From an uncultured Lactobacillus sp. (GTDB lineage Bacteria; Bacillota; Bacilli; Lactobacillales; Lactobacillaceae), in assembly GCF_944327175.1 (NCBI RefSeq), contig NZ_CALVGT010000005.1, positions 1-37,587 on the forward strand: a stretch of DNA of 37,587 bases. The letters are read 5' to 3'. The position numbers were made by a program, and so were the translations under genes. The notes below the pieces were generated by a model. It did no database searches and was not told the DNA's origin. It saw only the letters and a list, made by a program, of their open reading frames with translations. This document shows, piece by piece, positions 3,000-37,587 of this stretch (within the stretch, counting starts at the first letter, position 1; every line of letters starts with the position of its first letter).

Positions 3000-3028
3000 T
3001 TGACAACGCTTTCAGATGTGGTTTAATA
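3000..3028 (+). promoter_or_regulatory. Consensus promoter with overlapping cre (CcpA) site
   Basis: A perfect -35 TTGACA (3000-3005) is followed after 16 bases by TTTAAT (3022-3027). The segment TGACAACGCTTTCA (3001-3014) matches the catabolite-responsive element consensus TGWAANCGNTNWCA at 13 of 14 positions and overlaps the -35 box, the classical place for CcpA repression. The downstream flavin oxidase is therefore probably repressed on good sugars. Confidence 0.7.
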
Positions 3029-3083
3029 GAGACAGAGATTGAAATACAAAGAAGTTTAATAGAAACAGAGATTGAAATACAAA
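3021..3083 (+). repeat. Tandem 30-bp duplication spanning -10 and leader of the oxidase gene
   Basis: Two copies, 3021-3050 and 3054-3083, differ at one base (GAGACAG versus GAAACAG) and repeat with a 33-base period. Each contains TTTAAT, so the -10 hexamer is duplicated although only the first copy has a -35 box at the right distance. Confidence 0.85.
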
Positions 3084-3108
3084 AAAGAAAACTGTAAGGT
3101 GAGTTAGA

Positions 3109-4512: not shown

Positions 4513-4714
4513 AGTACGCTCCCTCCGCGCGGCAAGCTTCAAAAATCCGAAGTAAAAATAATCAAGAACTAATCAAATCAAGAATTAATCAACTAATCAA
4601 ATCAAGAATTAACCAAAAACCGAAAAGAACAAGTATCTAGCAATAAGTACATAAAAACAATAACAACAAAACAACATTTTAATTTTTAAGCTTCACAAAT
4701 TAATTATCACAAGG
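4513..4714. other. AT-rich gene-free interval with a short tandem repeat
   Basis: Two hundred bases without a credible gene lie between the oxidase and a terminator. Two identical 21-base copies at 4568-4588 and 4592-4612 (beginning ACTAATCAAATCAAGAATTA, 24-base period) follow a partial third copy near 4558. No hairpin stands directly after the oxidase stop codon, so the oxidase transcript probably runs to the terminator at 4715. Confidence 0.7.
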
Positions 4715-4740: not shown

Positions 4741-4772
4741 GTGCAAGAAAAATGACATCGCATCACTTTTTG

Positions 4773-4831
4773 TTGACACGGTGTCACCTTGGGCATATAA
4801 TAGAAAGCAGTTGAGGGTGACATGATGTCAC
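4773..4831 (+). promoter_or_regulatory. Consensus promoter with two TetR-type operators
   Basis: The -35 TTGACA (4773-4778) and -10 TATAAT (4796-4801) are perfect and spaced by 17. Operator 1, TGACACGGTGTCA (4774-4786), is a perfect palindrome overlapping the -35. Operator 2, GTGACATGATGTCAC (4817-4831), is a perfect palindrome between the -10 and the ribosome-binding site. They share TGACA...TGTCA half-sites and their centres are 44 bases apart, about four helical turns. A weaker relative TGACATCGCATCA lies at 4753. The natural ligand is the TetR protein encoded next. Confidence 0.85.
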
Positions 4832-4842
4832 GGAGGTGAAAA

Positions 4843-5346
4843 ATGGTCAAGGCAACTTTTGAGAATTTAAGTAAAGACAAGCAGGACCGGGTAACAGAGG
4901 CCCTGCTCAAGGAATTCAGCGTCCATACTTTGGCCAGCGCCCAGGTAGCGCGGATCGTCAAGGAAGCCGGGATTGCCCGGGGGGCCTTTTACAAGTACTT
5001 TGCGGATTTGACGGATGCTTACCAGTACCTGTTCAAGCTGGCCATGCGGGACCTGCACACGGGTCTGACCGGCCGGATGGGGGCAGACGAGCTCTACCAG
5101 ATGACCAAGGACTTTGTGACCAAGGCCACTGGCAGCCAGTACTATGACTTGATCCGCCTGCACTACGCGGCTAACGAGGCGCTTTTGCCAAGTAGTAGGC
5201 CTAAGCAGATGCCGGCCTGCACCTGGGCAGCCATGGCCCTGTCACACGAGGCAATCAAGGAGGCTTTGCTGGACCCGGATAAGGCAGATTTTTACTTAGA
5301 CCGGGAGCATGAGGCTTTAGAGAAGCTTTTTAGCCAACATAAATAG
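4843..5346 (+). CDS. TetR/AcrR-family repressor, probably autoregulatory
   Basis: A 167-residue regulator. The N-terminal 50 residues are a TetR helix-turn-helix (KQDRVTEALLKEFSVHTLASAQVARIVKEAG, then ARGAFYKYFADLTDAYQYLF), and the rest is a helical ligand/dimerisation domain without a recognisable class. GGAGG stands seven bases before the ATG. The two palindromes in its own promoter make autorepression very likely. The next two genes encode an ABC transporter, and only 43 bases separate the regulator from the permease, so all three appear to be one operon in which the regulator senses a compound exported or removed by the transporter. The inducing ligand is unknown. Confidence 0.9.
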   Translation: MVKATFENLSKDKQDRVTEALLKEFSVHTLASAQVARIVKEAGIARGAFYKYFADLTDAYQYLFKLAMRDLHTGLTGRMGADELYQMTKDFVTKATGSQYYDLIRLHYAANEALLPSSRPKQMPACTWAAMALSHEAIKEALLDPDKADFYLDREHEALEKLFSQHK

Positions 5347-7269: not shown

Positions 7270-8289
7270 ATGGAAAAATTATACGAAATCTACACAGACG
7301 CTGCTGAGGAGAGTTTTGAAGTCGGTCGCCTCTTGTTTGAAGAAAACGGCTGGCAGCTCTACTTGACTTTGGATGAGCTGGGCCGGGATGATTCCTTGCT
7401 CTTGATCAGAAAGTCAGCGGTCACGCGGCTGTTGGCTCAATCGGATTATTTGGCAGAGATCCAGTGCCGGCGGAAGCTGCTAACGCAAAAAGGCCTGGCA
7501 GATCCTTTCAAGCTGGAAGACAAAGTTACCTTAATCAAGTCAGTCGGAAGCTTTATGGACTTATTGCCCGGGCAGGTTGTATATTTTGGACTGGAAGGCG
7601 AAGATTACCAGCAATGGGGATATATTGATGAAATTTCTGCCGGGCAAGTTAATTTTGCAGCATATCCTTCTGGCAAGTACCAGCCTTTCGCAGGAAAAGT
7701 TGCTGTCAGTCAACTCCGGCGGCTAGCCGCTTTCTCCGGTGAATGGTTGCTGGACAATCCTAAGTTGCGGGATACTAAAGATACAACTGTAGATGGTTTG
7801 CGCGAAGTTCATCTGAAAGAAGATCCAGCTTCATTCGCGGTTGGTCGGCTCTTGTGTGCTGATGACGACTTCAGCTTGTATTTGACTGTTGACGAAATTG
7901 GCCGGGATGACTCATTGCTGCTGGTTAAGAAGAAGGCCGTTGACAGAGTAATTGATCGATCAGAGTATTTGCAAGATATCAGCCGCTGCCGGCGCCAGCT
8001 TAAGGAAAGAGGATTAGAAGATCCCTTTGAAGTTCAAGATAAAGCAGCAGAAATCAAGCAGATGCATGACTTCTGGCAATTAGCTGCCGGGCAAGTCGTG
8101 TCCTTTGTCATGAAAGATGAAGAAGAAGCAGAATATGGCATCTTGCAGAGCAAGGAAGGGGATGCCTTAAACCTTGCACAATACCCGTCCGGCAAGTACG
8201 AGACTTTTGCTGGCCAGATCAACCTGGCTGAAGTTGATCGCTTGGAAGCTTTTGGCGGTGAATTGACTTTGGAAAATAACAATTGTTAG
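7270..8289 (+). CDS. Hypothetical protein made of two tandem copies of one domain
   Basis: I do not recognise the family. The 339-residue soluble acidic protein consists of two homologous halves, roughly residues 10-165 and 188-337. Both halves contain, in order, F-VGRLL, LYLT-DE-GRDDSLLL, a CRR-L...GL-DPF block, GQVV-F, a YPSGKY--FAG motif and RL-AF-GE--L-N. The last motifs look like beta-strands of a compact alpha/beta unit. No catalytic motif, signal peptide or membrane segment is seen. The ATG at 7270 is chosen because GTGAGG lies nine bases upstream; a GTG at 7246 is in frame but less well placed. The gene is monocistronic with its own promoter. The conservation of GRDDSLLL and YPSGKY in both copies suggests a binding role for each half. 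Confidence 0.8.
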   Translation: MEKLYEIYTDAAEESFEVGRLLFEENGWQLYLTLDELGRDDSLLLIRKSAVTRLLAQSDYLAEIQCRRKLLTQKGLADPFKLEDKVTLIKSVGSFMDLLPGQVVYFGLEGEDYQQWGYIDEISAGQVNFAAYPSGKYQPFAGKVAVSQLRRLAAFSGEWLLDNPKLRDTKDTTVDGLREVHLKEDPASFAVGRLLCADDDFSLYLTVDEIGRDDSLLLVKKKAVDRVIDRSEYLQDISRCRRQLKERGLEDPFEVQDKAAEIKQMHDFWQLAAGQVVSFVMKDEEEAEYGILQSKEGDALNLAQYPSGKYETFAGQINLAEVDRLEAFGGELTLENNNC

Positions 8290-8385
8290 CGGGAACATGT
8301 AGTAAAACTACCATCAAAATGATAAACTAGACAGTGATGATTGCGCTTACATATTTTAGTCTGAATATTATTTTGAGGTTGATTT

Positions 8386-8883
8386 ATGTTTAGAATTTTT
8401 GATTTGCTAAAGAGCAGGGCCCGGCTGAGCAAGGTTCTGGCTCCGGTCCAGGGCAGGCTGTTCCCGCTCGAGGACGTCAACGATGAGATTTTTGCCAGCA
8501 AGGGACTGGGTGAGGGCTTCGCGGTTCAGCCGTCCAGTGACTTGATCTACGCTCCCTTGAACGGCACGGTTACTTCCTTGTTTCCGACCAACCATGAGAT
8601 TGGCATCCGGACCAAAGAAGGACTGGATCTCTTGATCCACCTGGGTTTGAACACGGTAGAGCTAGGCGGGGGCGGTTGCGACATTTTAGTTGAAGCCGGC
8701 CAGGAAGTTAAAAAGGGGCAGCTATTGGCGACTATGAACCGTAAGCTGCTCCGCGGACTCGGCTACGACGATACGGTGATCGTGACTTATACCAACGACC
8801 AGATCCTGAAAGGGGTCTCGGCACCGGTCTTCTTTAGAGAGATCAATGCCAAAAGGGCGGTCCAGACGATCAGCTACCATTAA
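8386..8883 (+). CDS. PTS EIIA-Glc-type phosphocarrier, stand-alone
   Basis: A 165-residue EIIA of the glucose family (Crr-like). The barrel-forming core includes VLAPVQGRLFPLEDV, a G-GFAVQPSS stretch, LYAPLNGTV-like ISLAPLNG (here IYAPLNGTV), His70 in NHEIGI and the phospho-accepting His85 in LLIHLGLNTVEL. It accepts phosphate from HPr and passes it to an EIIBC permease domain. No permease is adjacent, so it probably serves a transporter encoded elsewhere, such as a glucose, sucrose or beta-glucoside type. GAGG lies seven bases before the ATG. A conserved terminator hairpin follows directly. Confidence 0.92.
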   Translation: MFRIFDLLKSRARLSKVLAPVQGRLFPLEDVNDEIFASKGLGEGFAVQPSSDLIYAPLNGTVTSLFPTNHEIGIRTKEGLDLLIHLGLNTVELGGGGCDILVEAGQEVKKGQLLATMNRKLLRGLGYDDTVIVTYTNDQILKGVSAPVFFREINAKRAVQTISYH

Positions 8884-17086: not shown

Positions 17087-17094
17087 AGTAAAGC

Positions 17095-17129
17095 AAAAGC
17101 AGCCTCACCTTCTGGTGAAGCTGCTTTTT
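17095..17129. terminator. Bidirectional terminator between apbE and cvpA
   Basis: AAAAGCAGC-C-TCACC pairs with GGTGA-A-GCTGCTTTT around TTCT, with an A run upstream and a T run downstream, between convergent genes that end at 17086 and 17132. Confidence 0.85.
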
Positions 17130-17131
17130 CC

Positions 17132-35194: not shown

Positions 35195-35226
35195 AAAAGA
35201 ACTCGGATTTTTTCCGAGTTCTTTTT
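35195..35226 (+). terminator. Rho-independent terminator after fruA
   Basis: AAAAGAACTCGGA / TCCGAGTTCTTTT is a perfect 13-pair stem with a five-T loop and a T run. Confidence 0.92.
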
Positions 35227-35293: not shown

Positions 35294-36889
35294 ATGGAAC
35301 GAATGTGGACAAATTGGTACCTGGCCAGTGAAGAAGTTGAAAATGACGCTGTCGTGCAATCGGCCCAGGCAGCTGAGCAGCTAATCAATCCGGACTATGA
35401 CCACACCCGGCAGCTTTCTGATCAGAATTTGGCTGGGGTGCGCGAGCTGAACGACTTGCTGGTCAGCTATAACCAGCTGGGGGTGGCCCAGGCAGCGACT
35501 TTGACGCAGGAGCAGTTGGTGAATACGGAAAATCTATTAGCGGGCGCGGCGGGTGAGTGGCTAGTCGATCAGGCGGTCAAGTCCGTCGCGGCGGTAGTTT
35601 TTCATAATGTGATTCTGCCCTGCAAATATGATAGAAATCGGCCAGTTGGCGATAACCAAATTGATAATTTGGTGATTACCAGTACCGGCATTTATTGTAT
35701 TGAAGTCAAGGTGCGCAAAATAGCGGGGAAGCTTTTCGACTTTAACCGGCTGGGCCGGGGCATTTATGATCAGATTAGCTACCACAAGGAGGCGCTGACG
35801 CAAGCCCTGCAGCCAATGGGGATCAGTCCCAATTTTATTAAGACGATTGTGGTGGTGATCAACCGGCTGGGGAATGATGACTTCAAGCTGAAGAACCAGG
35901 AGGATCTGCAGCGGGCTGGTTCGCAGGTGGTTAAGCTGTCGGTCTTAAACCTATTTTTGAGCAATGACGGGTTCGCCTTGCTGAATCAGCAGCAGATCCA
36001 GGCAATTGAGCAGGCGATTCAAAGCCAGCGCCTGCCTGATCGGCGGACCTATCCAGCCAATGTCCGTTTTAAGTTGACGCAGGCGCATCTGGATAAAGCT
36101 AGACAGATCAGCCAGGCGGTCAGACTTGGAATTCCGCTTGCGCAGAACGTGACGTATCATGGGCGGTTAAATGATTATCCGCTCACAGGCTTGACCGGAA
36201 GGCAGCAGAATATGTTGTGGCTGATCGTGGGCCGGCTTTATGGTTTCGGGTGCGGCACGCTCCAGCTGACCCGAAGTGAGTTGCGGACTGGGGCTGGTTA
36301 TGGCGGGCGTGATTTTTTGCGGCTGGATCAGCAGTTAAGCGAATTGGCTGAGTTCATGCAACAGAGCAAGCTTTTTCAAAAGGCTAAGTATGAAGATAAG
36401 AAATTGACAGTTAGCGTTAGCAAGAAGTACTCGTTCCTGTTTAACGGCTGCACGAAGGACTTCACCTGCTGGAATTATCAATTGCTGCGCCGAATCAGCC
36501 TGAACAACGCCAAGACTTTGTTCCGCAAGCTACTGCAAGTTTCAGCAGCTGGCTGCTACCAGGTGTCCTTTGAGCAGCTGCGGGAGATTCTGGCAGTGCC
36601 GGATAGCTATTCGAATTATGAGGTAATGAGGAATAAGATTAAGCCTGCTGTACTTCAACTGGTACCATTTTTTGGCAATTTGAGCTACGAAGTGGTCAAG
36701 AGCGGCAAAGCGAATAAAATTGTTGGGATAACTTTCACTTTTGATAAGTTTTCGCCGGAGGAACTGTTGGCCTTAAGAGAATGGCACAAATATTCAACTA
36801 ATATTTCTGCTAATTCGCATTTATCTCTAACCGAGCAATTGAAAGCTGAAAAAATTTTAGAAAAGAATTTTGGAGATTGTTTGAAGTAG
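35294..36889 (+). CDS. NERD nuclease-like domain fused to a RepB/Rep_3-like winged-helix domain
   Basis: A 531-residue soluble protein. Residues 1-80 are helical and acidic. Residues 86-190 are a NERD domain: GEWLVDQAV, VVFHNVILP, then NQIDNLVITSTGIYCIEVKV, giving Asp124, Glu137 and Lys139 in the PD-(D/E)XK nuclease arrangement. Residues 300-365 resemble a first winged helix, and 376-483 read like the second winged helix of Rep_3 plasmid initiators: KKYSFLFNGCTKDFT, LLRRISLNNAKTLFRKLLQ, VSFEQLREILAVPDSY, RNKIKPAVLQL, YEVVKSGKANKIVGITFTF. The likely action is binding repeated DNA and cutting it, inferred from the domains. AAGGAG precedes the ATG. Codon use is less biased than in its neighbours and the 3' end turns AT-rich. 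A 42-bp repeat array begins just downstream. Confidence 0.82.
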   Translation: MERMWTNWYLASEEVENDAVVQSAQAAEQLINPDYDHTRQLSDQNLAGVRELNDLLVSYNQLGVAQAATLTQEQLVNTENLLAGAAGEWLVDQAVKSVAAVVFHNVILPCKYDRNRPVGDNQIDNLVITSTGIYCIEVKVRKIAGKLFDFNRLGRGIYDQISYHKEALTQALQPMGISPNFIKTIVVVINRLGNDDFKLKNQEDLQRAGSQVVKLSVLNLFLSNDGFALLNQQQIQAIEQAIQSQRLPDRRTYPANVRFKLTQAHLDKARQISQAVRLGIPLAQNVTYHGRLNDYPLTGLTGRQQNMLWLIVGRLYGFGCGTLQLTRSELRTGAGYGGRDFLRLDQQLSELAEFMQQSKLFQKAKYEDKKLTVSVSKKYSFLFNGCTKDFTCWNYQLLRRISLNNAKTLFRKLLQVSAAGCYQVSFEQLREILAVPDSYSNYEVMRNKIKPAVLQLVPFFGNLSYEVVKSGKANKIVGITFTFDKFSPEELLALREWHKYSTNISANSHLSLTEQLKAEKILEKNFGDCLK

Positions 36890-36912: not shown

Positions 36913-37122
36913 GTGGTTCAGTAAAAACTGGGGTTAAAATTATTGAAAAAGGTCGTGGCTCAGTAAAAATCGGGGTCAAAATTTTTGAAAAAGGCCGTGG
37001 TTCAGTAAAAATCGGGGCTAAAATTATTGAAAAAAGCCGTGGCTCAGTAAAAATCGGGGTTGAAATTATTGAAAAAGGCCGTGGCTCAGTAAAAATCGGG
37101 GCTCGAAGCGATGAACTGTCCC
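36913..37122 (+). repeat. 42-bp direct repeat array, plus-orientation subfamily, five units
   Basis: The unit begins GTGG(C/T)TCAGTAAAAA, continues with TCGGGG and an AT-rich half (AAATTATTGAAAAA), and ends with a GGCC-like tail. CAGTAAAA starts at 36919, 36961, 37003, 37045 and 37087, exactly 42 bases apart. There are no unique spacers; the whole 42 bases are repeated with scattered substitutions. 42 bases is four turns of B-DNA, so all units would face the same side. Confidence 0.92.
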
Positions 37123-37123
37123 A

Positions 37124-37587
37124 GTTTTTACCGCAGCCACATCCAAATCCCGCAAACTCATCCCCGTTTTTACCGCAGCCACGTCCAAATCCTGTAAACT
37201 CATCCCCGTTTTTACCGCAGCCAGGGCCAAATCCCGCAAACTCATCTCCGTTTTTACCGTAGCCACGTCCAAATCCTGTAAATTCATCCCCGTTTTTACC
37301 GTAGCCAGGTCCAAATTTCGCAAACTCATCCCCGTTTTTACCGTAGCCACATCCAAATCCCGTAAAACTGTCCCCGTTTTTACCGCAGCCACATCCAAAT
37401 CCCGCAAAACCATCCCCGCTTTTACCGCAGCCACATCCAAATCCCGCAAAACTATCCCCGCTTTTACCGCAGCCACGTCCAAATTTCGCAAAAACATCCC
37501 CGTTTTTACCGCAGCCACGTCCAAATATCGCAAGACCGTCCCCGTTTTTGCCACAGCCAAAACCAAACCCAACAAAAGTACACCAGA
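37124..37587 (-). repeat. 42-bp direct repeat array, opposite-orientation subfamily, at least eleven units
   Basis: On the minus strand the unit reads GTGGCTGCGGTAAAAACGGG, then GATGAGTTTGCGGGATTTGG. Units begin (plus-strand G of GTTTTTACC or GCTTTTACC) at 37124, 37166, 37208, 37250, 37292, 37334, 37376, 37418, 37460, 37502 and 37544, an unbroken 42-base period up to the window edge. The first half is clearly related to the plus-orientation subfamily (GTGGCT, GTAAAAA, CGGGG), the second half has diverged. The outermost unit is degenerate. One minus-strand frame is open through the array (14 codons per unit), but coding is unproven. Confidence 0.92.

Follow-up and report, generated by a model that had tools for sequence, protein, structure and literature searches.

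A Rep_3-type initiator fused to a NERD domain is accompanied by chromosomal repeat arrays in a Lactobacillus and its close relatives

A Lactobacillus-type bacterium carries a protein that joins a NERD domain, a predicted nuclease module, to a complete plasmid-type Rep_3 replication initiator, and close relatives carry the same protein together with many matching arrays of evenly spaced short repeats scattered between their genes. This combination looks like an undescribed repeat-and-nuclease system, in which binding of the arrays is strongly implied, whereas cleavage and purpose are inferred. The gene lies near the end of a contig of 37,587 nucleotides from an uncultured Lactobacillus sp. (NZ_CALVGT010000005.1; here, the window). 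We refer to the genome of the window as G000 and to two other genomes of the genus as G001 and G012; contigs within genomes are given C numbers, and individual loci in these and other genomes are given L numbers. Open reading frames (ORFs) in the loci outside the window were called mechanically, and gene names such as murC, fruA, apbE, cvpA, or HAD are our readings of the translated sequences.

A sequence-only reading of the window had proposed that this ORF encodes a NERD nuclease domain with a complete core (Asp124, Glu137, and Lys139) followed by a C-terminal region resembling the second winged helix of Rep_3 initiators. This observation was confirmed. The protein scores above the Pfam cutoffs for NERD, Rep3_N, and Rep3_C (Table 1), with no transposase match, and the three named residues, which are of the catalytic type, are as described and invariant in all eight fusion proteins that we identified. 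The Rep part is a whole initiator and not only the second winged helix: a profile of residues 273 to 531 with six relatives aligned with seven plasmid-type Rep_3 initiators over 238 columns (hhalign probability, 99.8%; E value, 3e-30), including a C-terminal tail beyond the Pfam domains. Among the eight proteins, an E value of ≤0.01 was reached by eight for NERD, seven for Rep3_N, and four for Rep3_C; L028 alone matches only NERD, so the weaker members rest on the alignment. Sequence and profile searches of the PDB gave no hit at E values of ≤10 and ≤1, respectively. An AlphaFold model built from the window protein and its 97% relative from L003 had a pLDDT of 39, too poor to count, and only the order of predicted helices and strands agreed with NERD and winged helices.

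Table 1. Features of the window that bear on the fusion gene and its repeats
Position	Strand	Feature	Basis
35294-36889	+	NERD-Rep_3 fusion gene, ATG start, 531 aa (W protein)	ORF translation; Pfam; relatives and alignment
35543-35857	+	NERD domain, residues 84-188, with Asp124, Glu137, Lys139	PF08378, 43.3 bits (cutoff 22.1); residues invariant in 8 of 8
36149-36526	+	Rep3_N, first winged helix, residues 286-411	PF01051, 34.9 bits (cutoff 22.4); profile alignment to plasmid Reps
36566-36742	+	Rep3_C, second winged helix, residues 425-483	PF21205, 32.9 bits (cutoff 21.1); profile alignment to plasmid Reps
36743-36886	+	C-terminal tail, residues 484-531, shared with plasmid Reps	Profile alignment to plasmid Reps
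36913-37101	-	First arm of the array, 4.5 units of 42 bp, W1 core CCCCGATTTTTACTGAGCCAC on the - strand	Tandem Repeats Finder; 4 W1 matches on -
37119-37559	+	Second arm, inverted to the first, 10.5 units of 42 bp, W2 core CCCCGTTTTTACCGCAGCCA on the + strand; the contig ends at 37587	Tandem Repeats Finder; 8 W2 matches on +
35195-35225	+	Terminator-like hairpin between fruA and the fusion gene	
17087-17131	.	45-bp gap between apbE-like and cvpA-like genes, with a terminator-like hairpin only and no array; the same site carries arrays in G001 (L115) and G012 (L133)	
3021-3087 and 4560-4616		Two short tandem repeats (33 bp twice; 16 and 24 bp units), not related to the arrays by eye	

If the fusion were an artifact of assembly, it would not be expected to recur, a point that had been set beforehand as a test of the proposal. 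Of 75 genomes of the genus, 24 have some match and three have full-length fusions: two in G000, two in G001, and four in G012. These eight open copies rule out an assembly joint. Pairwise identities are 35 to 51%, apart from two cross-species pairs at 97%: the window protein with a protein on contig C15 of G001 (the W protein) and a protein on contig C12 of G001 with one on contig C150 of G012 (the C protein). The paralog in G000, on contig C14, is called D, and its frame of 534 residues is open up to its own TAG stop. Record JAEDAG010000003 (L003), which corresponds to G001 C15, is titled Faecalicatena absiana (a Lachnospiraceae name), yet a contig of the same length and match lies in a genome of the genus of the window, so the label looks wrong. 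No further full-length fusion was found in samples of 397 family, 395 order, and 398 phylum genomes (the last two at an E value of ≤1e-28; in all of these samples, at most three candidates were scored per genome), and 0 of 737 matching plasmid records cover 80% of the protein. Among 65 and 30 pattern matches in viral contigs, there was no relative of the fusion or of its Rep part, and phages gave one weak Rep-only match. Two other groups of proteins in the genus contain one of the two parts. Proteins of 545 to 609 aa (L007, positions 724 to 2367; L010; L011; L014) have the NERD domain in the second half after an unnamed N-terminal part, with no Rep_3 domain in the three scanned with Pfam, and are possibly the source of the NERD module. 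Longer Rep_3 proteins with frames of 425 to 470 aa (L022, positions 949 to 2346, on G043 contig C3; also in genomes G035, G073, and G026) lie on contigs of various sizes, plasmid, prophage, or other; the one scanned with Pfam (L022) has no NERD domain.

The sequence-only reading did not mention the paralog on another contig or the two inverted arrays of 42-bp repeats that directly follow the gene. All eight fusion genes have tandem arrays nearby, seven within 250 bp and one (L025) separated from its array by an insertion sequence. The periods are 42 bp, or 31 to 32 bp for L023 (D) and L029. We considered whether the arrays might have nothing to do with the protein, being coding repeats or neutral satellites that happen to lie next to it, because 42 bp is 14 codons and long frames run through the arrays. 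However, arrays of 31 to 32 bp cannot be codon repeats, all eight genes have arrays, and the array families follow the genomes that carry fusion genes, as described below. We therefore regard this explanation as very unlikely. The array in the window folds strongly as RNA (z score, -8.06; 20 shuffles), as an inverted repeat would, and we did not use this as evidence.

To determine whether the arrays are restricted to the vicinity of the fusion genes, we searched all 75 genus genomes with patterns for each family. The C-type pattern occurs only in G001 (32 hits) and G012 (109 hits), the W-type only in G000 (8) and G001 (41), and the D-type only in G000 (12) and G012 (12); the same patterns read backwards gave 0. 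W and C families thus follow their proteins across species. D is an exception, as G012 has D arrays but no protein closer than 51% to the D protein. W arrays were found at 8 distinct places in G001 and 1 in G000, where the contig ends inside the array, and C arrays were found at 4 places in G001 and at least 22 in G012 within the stretches that we read; the genomes are partly fragmented, many G012 contigs end in arrays, and some places at contig ends may be halves of one array. In G001, one W and one C place adjoins a fusion gene, and the other ten places that we read have none nearby. A junction pattern used to find array pairs also had one reversed-control hit in G000 and one in G012, and its hits at G000 C55, G001 C17, and G012 C24:12884 were dropped because they show no 42-bp array. 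A further family, T3 (core CCCCGGAAAGTACCCAAC / CCCCGCAAAGTC), lies directly beside W arrays in G001 (L113, positions 4755 to 4911; L115, 4370 to 4852; L116, 4217 to 4740) with no recognized protein of its own. Array families also stack at one site, W with T3 in L113, L115, and L116 and C with D in L029, L123, L125, L130, L155, and L156.

We next compared repeat units collected by a short anchor. A core of 20 to 22 bp is conserved both within sets (identity, 0.91 to 0.94) and between unlinked sets (0.87 to 0.90), whereas spacers agree within a set (0.76 to 0.90) but not between sets (0.59 to 0.62). This comparison used 19 C1, 17 C2, 6 W2, and 7 W1 sets, a set being one locus and strand, so that L026 pools several arrays; anchor bases are identical by construction, only units with the next anchor at 41 to 43 bp were used, and C1 sets had to contain TATGT or TATAT in half of their units. 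Among anchor intervals of 20 to 60 bp, the spacing is exactly 42 bp in 348 of 380 C, 47 of 49 W2, and 35 of 36 W1 intervals and 32 bp in 73 of 91 D intervals, with 12 at 33 bp and 6 at 42 bp. At 10.5 bp per turn, 42 and 31.5 bp are four and three turns. A core held constant at unlinked sites, at fixed helical phase, is what a shared DNA-binding protein would impose.

The presence of a complete initiator suggested that the gene and its arrays might be an integrated mini-replicon or satellite that still excises as a circle, replicates from its arrays, and reintegrates by homologous recombination at resident arrays. The D gene is flanked by array pairs, against one pair and no gene at the same place in G012, which would fit this idea. 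However, loci of the nearest plasmid-type Reps show 22-bp arrays in 19 of 25 cases, and no 22-bp iterons or 11-bp repeats like those of the plasmid relatives were found here. A simple pattern scan, which cannot exclude an origin, found no DnaA-box-like site in 7 of 8 gene regions and two degenerate sites in L029. In addition, no plasmid record covers the fusion, and the genes lie among ordinary chromosomal ones by our reading of the translations. We consider a mini-replicon quite unlikely. The array cores do not convincingly resemble plasmid iterons: in comparisons of 11 typed units with 9 iterons, with 200 shuffles each, 5 of 99 reached 0.015 or less, all for D, L029, or T3b units and none for W or C.

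The functional proposals of the sequence-only reading were a DNA-targeting defense protein, a plasmid-control protein, or a domesticated replicon remnant. Its interpretation was partly supported: the domain assignment is right, with the fold of the C-terminal part supported by sequence profiles alone, but the functional suggestions missed the main feature, the arrays. In a defense role, the protein would recognize iterons or replication intermediates of incoming plasmids or phages and cut them, and the chromosomal arrays would be decoys, storage, or self-marks with a noncleavable 42-bp geometry. NERD nucleases occur in candidate defense systems (PMC12458937), Rep_3 specificity fits plasmid targets, and the genes are patchy and recently transferred. 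However, a scan of the fusion protein matched no PADLOC model (0 families at an E value of ≤10), the neighboring genes read as ordinary metabolism and not as a defense island, the array cores do not match the iterons tested, and a DNA search of the gene and its array found no plasmid match. Defense also does not explain why arrays follow the proteins. We found no direct sign of defense and regard it as possible but unlikely. "Replicon remnant" is too weak a description, given the array families across the chromosome that go with the gene and the purifying selection and recent mobility described next.

Two of the genes moved recently between species. Between G000 and G001, the fusion gene has a dS of 0.117, while seven neighbors have 0.446 to 1.305; between G001 and G012, the C gene has a dS of 0.057, while six other genes, from the fru region, have 0.98 to 4.6. 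Identity along the window gene is 94 to 99% in steps of 150 bp, against 72 to 95% in the 3 kb before it. dN/dS is about 0.10 and 0.22, so selection keeps the protein. In G001 and G012, the C gene with its arrays sits at unrelated places; the shared block carries a 3' piece of a neighboring exporter-like gene and stops abruptly, and no short target duplication or terminal repeat was recognized by eye at its ends. The W gene lies between fruA and a HAD gene in G001 and after fruA at the end of the contig in G000, but G012 has only 188 bp between the two. At the racemase/fruR site, the intergenic sequence was too diverged to give exact insertion ends. The D gene in G000 is flanked by arrays on both sides, whereas the matching site in G012 has one array pair and no gene, and identity there steps from 84% to 91 to 97%. 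This fits entry or loss by recombination between arrays.

The positions of the arrays suggested another possibility, that this is a domesticated chromosome-organizing or insulating system. In this view, the protein coats or bridges arrays (handcuffing, as iteron initiators of Rep_3 plasmids do [PMC5703833]), blocking transcription or replication between convergent genes or folding the nucleoid, and NERD is structural or acts on collisions. We dropped sites beside fusion genes, sites with one flank beyond the contig, and two sites with insertion sequences as a flank (L111 and L112). Of the remaining 17 two-sided W/C sites, 14 lie between convergent genes, against 14 of 157 array-free gaps of 30 to 600 bp in the same loci (Fisher P = 1.3e-10). 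Two of the 14 were relabeled by hand (L119, whose left flank is only a gene fragment, and L026 at 441, whose left gene is seen in L135), L115 uses the gene beyond an insertion sequence, and the two arms in L118, split by an insertion sequence, count as one tandem site; unedited machine labels, with L111 and L112 kept, give 13 of 20. Three neighborhoods hold arrays in both G001 and G012, although in two of them the family differs: cvpA/apbE and a gene starting MWSWNVLG have W in G001 and C in G012, and a BMP-lipoprotein region has C in both, there with extra genes between in G001. The inverted symmetric arms and constant helical phase also fit such a role. In contrast, only 1 of 8 D sites is convergent, the genes move horizontally, array families stack and replace one another, the window lacks an array at the cvpA/apbE site, and fusions are present in only 3 of 75 genus genomes. 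This is the main rival explanation, but we consider it unlikely. Two transposase-like genes (463 and 472 aa) recur beside or inside array sites in G001 (L025, positions 7409 to 8800; L111, 5257 to 6648; L112, 1920 to 3311; L115, 4985 to 6376; and L114, 6543 to 7961; L118, 4595 to 6013), as if arrays were safe landing places for insertion sequences.

Our preferred reading, which we hold tentatively, is that the window contains one copy of a two-part chromosomal system, a Rep_3-type initiator armed with a putative nuclease that acts in trans on dispersed arrays of iteron-like sites. In this model, the Rep_3 half would bind the core of each unit, many molecules would line up on one face of the DNA because units are spaced by whole helical turns, and the two inverted arms would make a symmetric site. 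The NERD half, a putative PD-(D/E)XK-type nuclease, would cut or nick at or near loaded arrays under some condition, and repair by homologous recombination with another array would exchange arrays and let the gene with its arrays move between sites and species. Binding by the Rep_3 half is the simplest account of the arrays beside the genes, their dispersal with the proteins, and their conserved cores and spacing; a putative nuclease tied to such sites, gene mobility, and breakpoints at arrays suggest break-and-repair exchange between arrays. The analysis itself establishes the fusion, the intact catalytic-type residues, purifying selection, arrays by every fusion gene, array families confined to genomes with fusion genes, a core constrained at unlinked sites, near-exact spacing, and recent movement of two of the genes. 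What we infer from these is binding of the arrays, which is likely; cutting by NERD, which is somewhat more likely than not; and spread driven by cutting, which is somewhat less likely than not. Several results weigh against the model. D arrays in G012 lack a close protein, T3 arrays lack a recognized one, and only one W array place was found in G000. Locus-specific spacers argue against recent copying of most arrays, and NERD has not been shown to be a nuclease in PMC9040797. The array cores do not convincingly resemble iterons of the nearest plasmid Reps, and no short target duplication or terminal repeat was recognized by eye at the ends of the shared C block.

Taken further, the evidence would allow a chromosome-wide repeat system of a previously undescribed class, a reading that we consider about as likely as not. 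Plasmid initiators would have been converted, by fusion to a NERD nuclease, into proteins that act on dispersed inverted arrays of iteron-like sites with helical-turn spacing, and successive families (W, C, D, and T3) would invade, stack at the same intergenic sites, and replace one another, spreading by cleavage-stimulated recombination between arrays. Literature searches, limited to open PubMed Central papers and judged by title and the start of the abstract, listed nothing on this protein or these arrays. If correct, this reading would show a plasmid replication initiator reused as a site-specific effector on the chromosome, give the little-studied NERD domain a natural DNA target, and add a second, unrelated answer to what dispersed bacterial repeats are for and how they spread. 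The paired protein and array families (W, C, and D) would make the recognition code directly testable.

Comparison with known systems places these elements as follows. Like CRISPR arrays, they alternate a conserved repeat with a less conserved spacer at constant length, but spacers within an array are 76 to 90% alike and arrays come in inverted pairs; no Rfam match was found in the 4 sources searched, no cas genes were recognized by eye among the neighbors, and we rejected this identity. The protein shares the NERD core and its catalytic-type residues with other NERD proteins, most of which are single-domain, some with kinase or helicase domains (PMC9040797); we found no mention of fusion to an initiator there or in PMC12458937. 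With Rep_3 theta-plasmid initiators (PMC5703833), it shares both winged helices, the C-terminal tail, and tandem repeats beside the gene, but it differs in its N-terminal NERD module, its chromosomal place, the 42- or 31- to 32-bp spacing instead of 22 bp, the inverted arms, and the many places in trans. The nearest analog is the REPtron, TnpA_REP/RAYT with dispersed REP/BIME repeats (PMC8266576; PMC2817692), which also has a gene beside cognate repeats that are dispersed between genes, protein and repeat families that change together, and repeats in inverted arrangement, although "cognate" here rests on co-occurrence and not on binding. This system would share the logic of a REPtron but be built from unrelated parts: the protein is a Rep_3-NERD fusion and not an HUH (Y1) transposase, and the repeats are long tandem arrays with 20- to 22-bp cores at 42 or 31 to 32 bp, not short palindromes, at about 12 to 22 places per genome rather than at high copy number.
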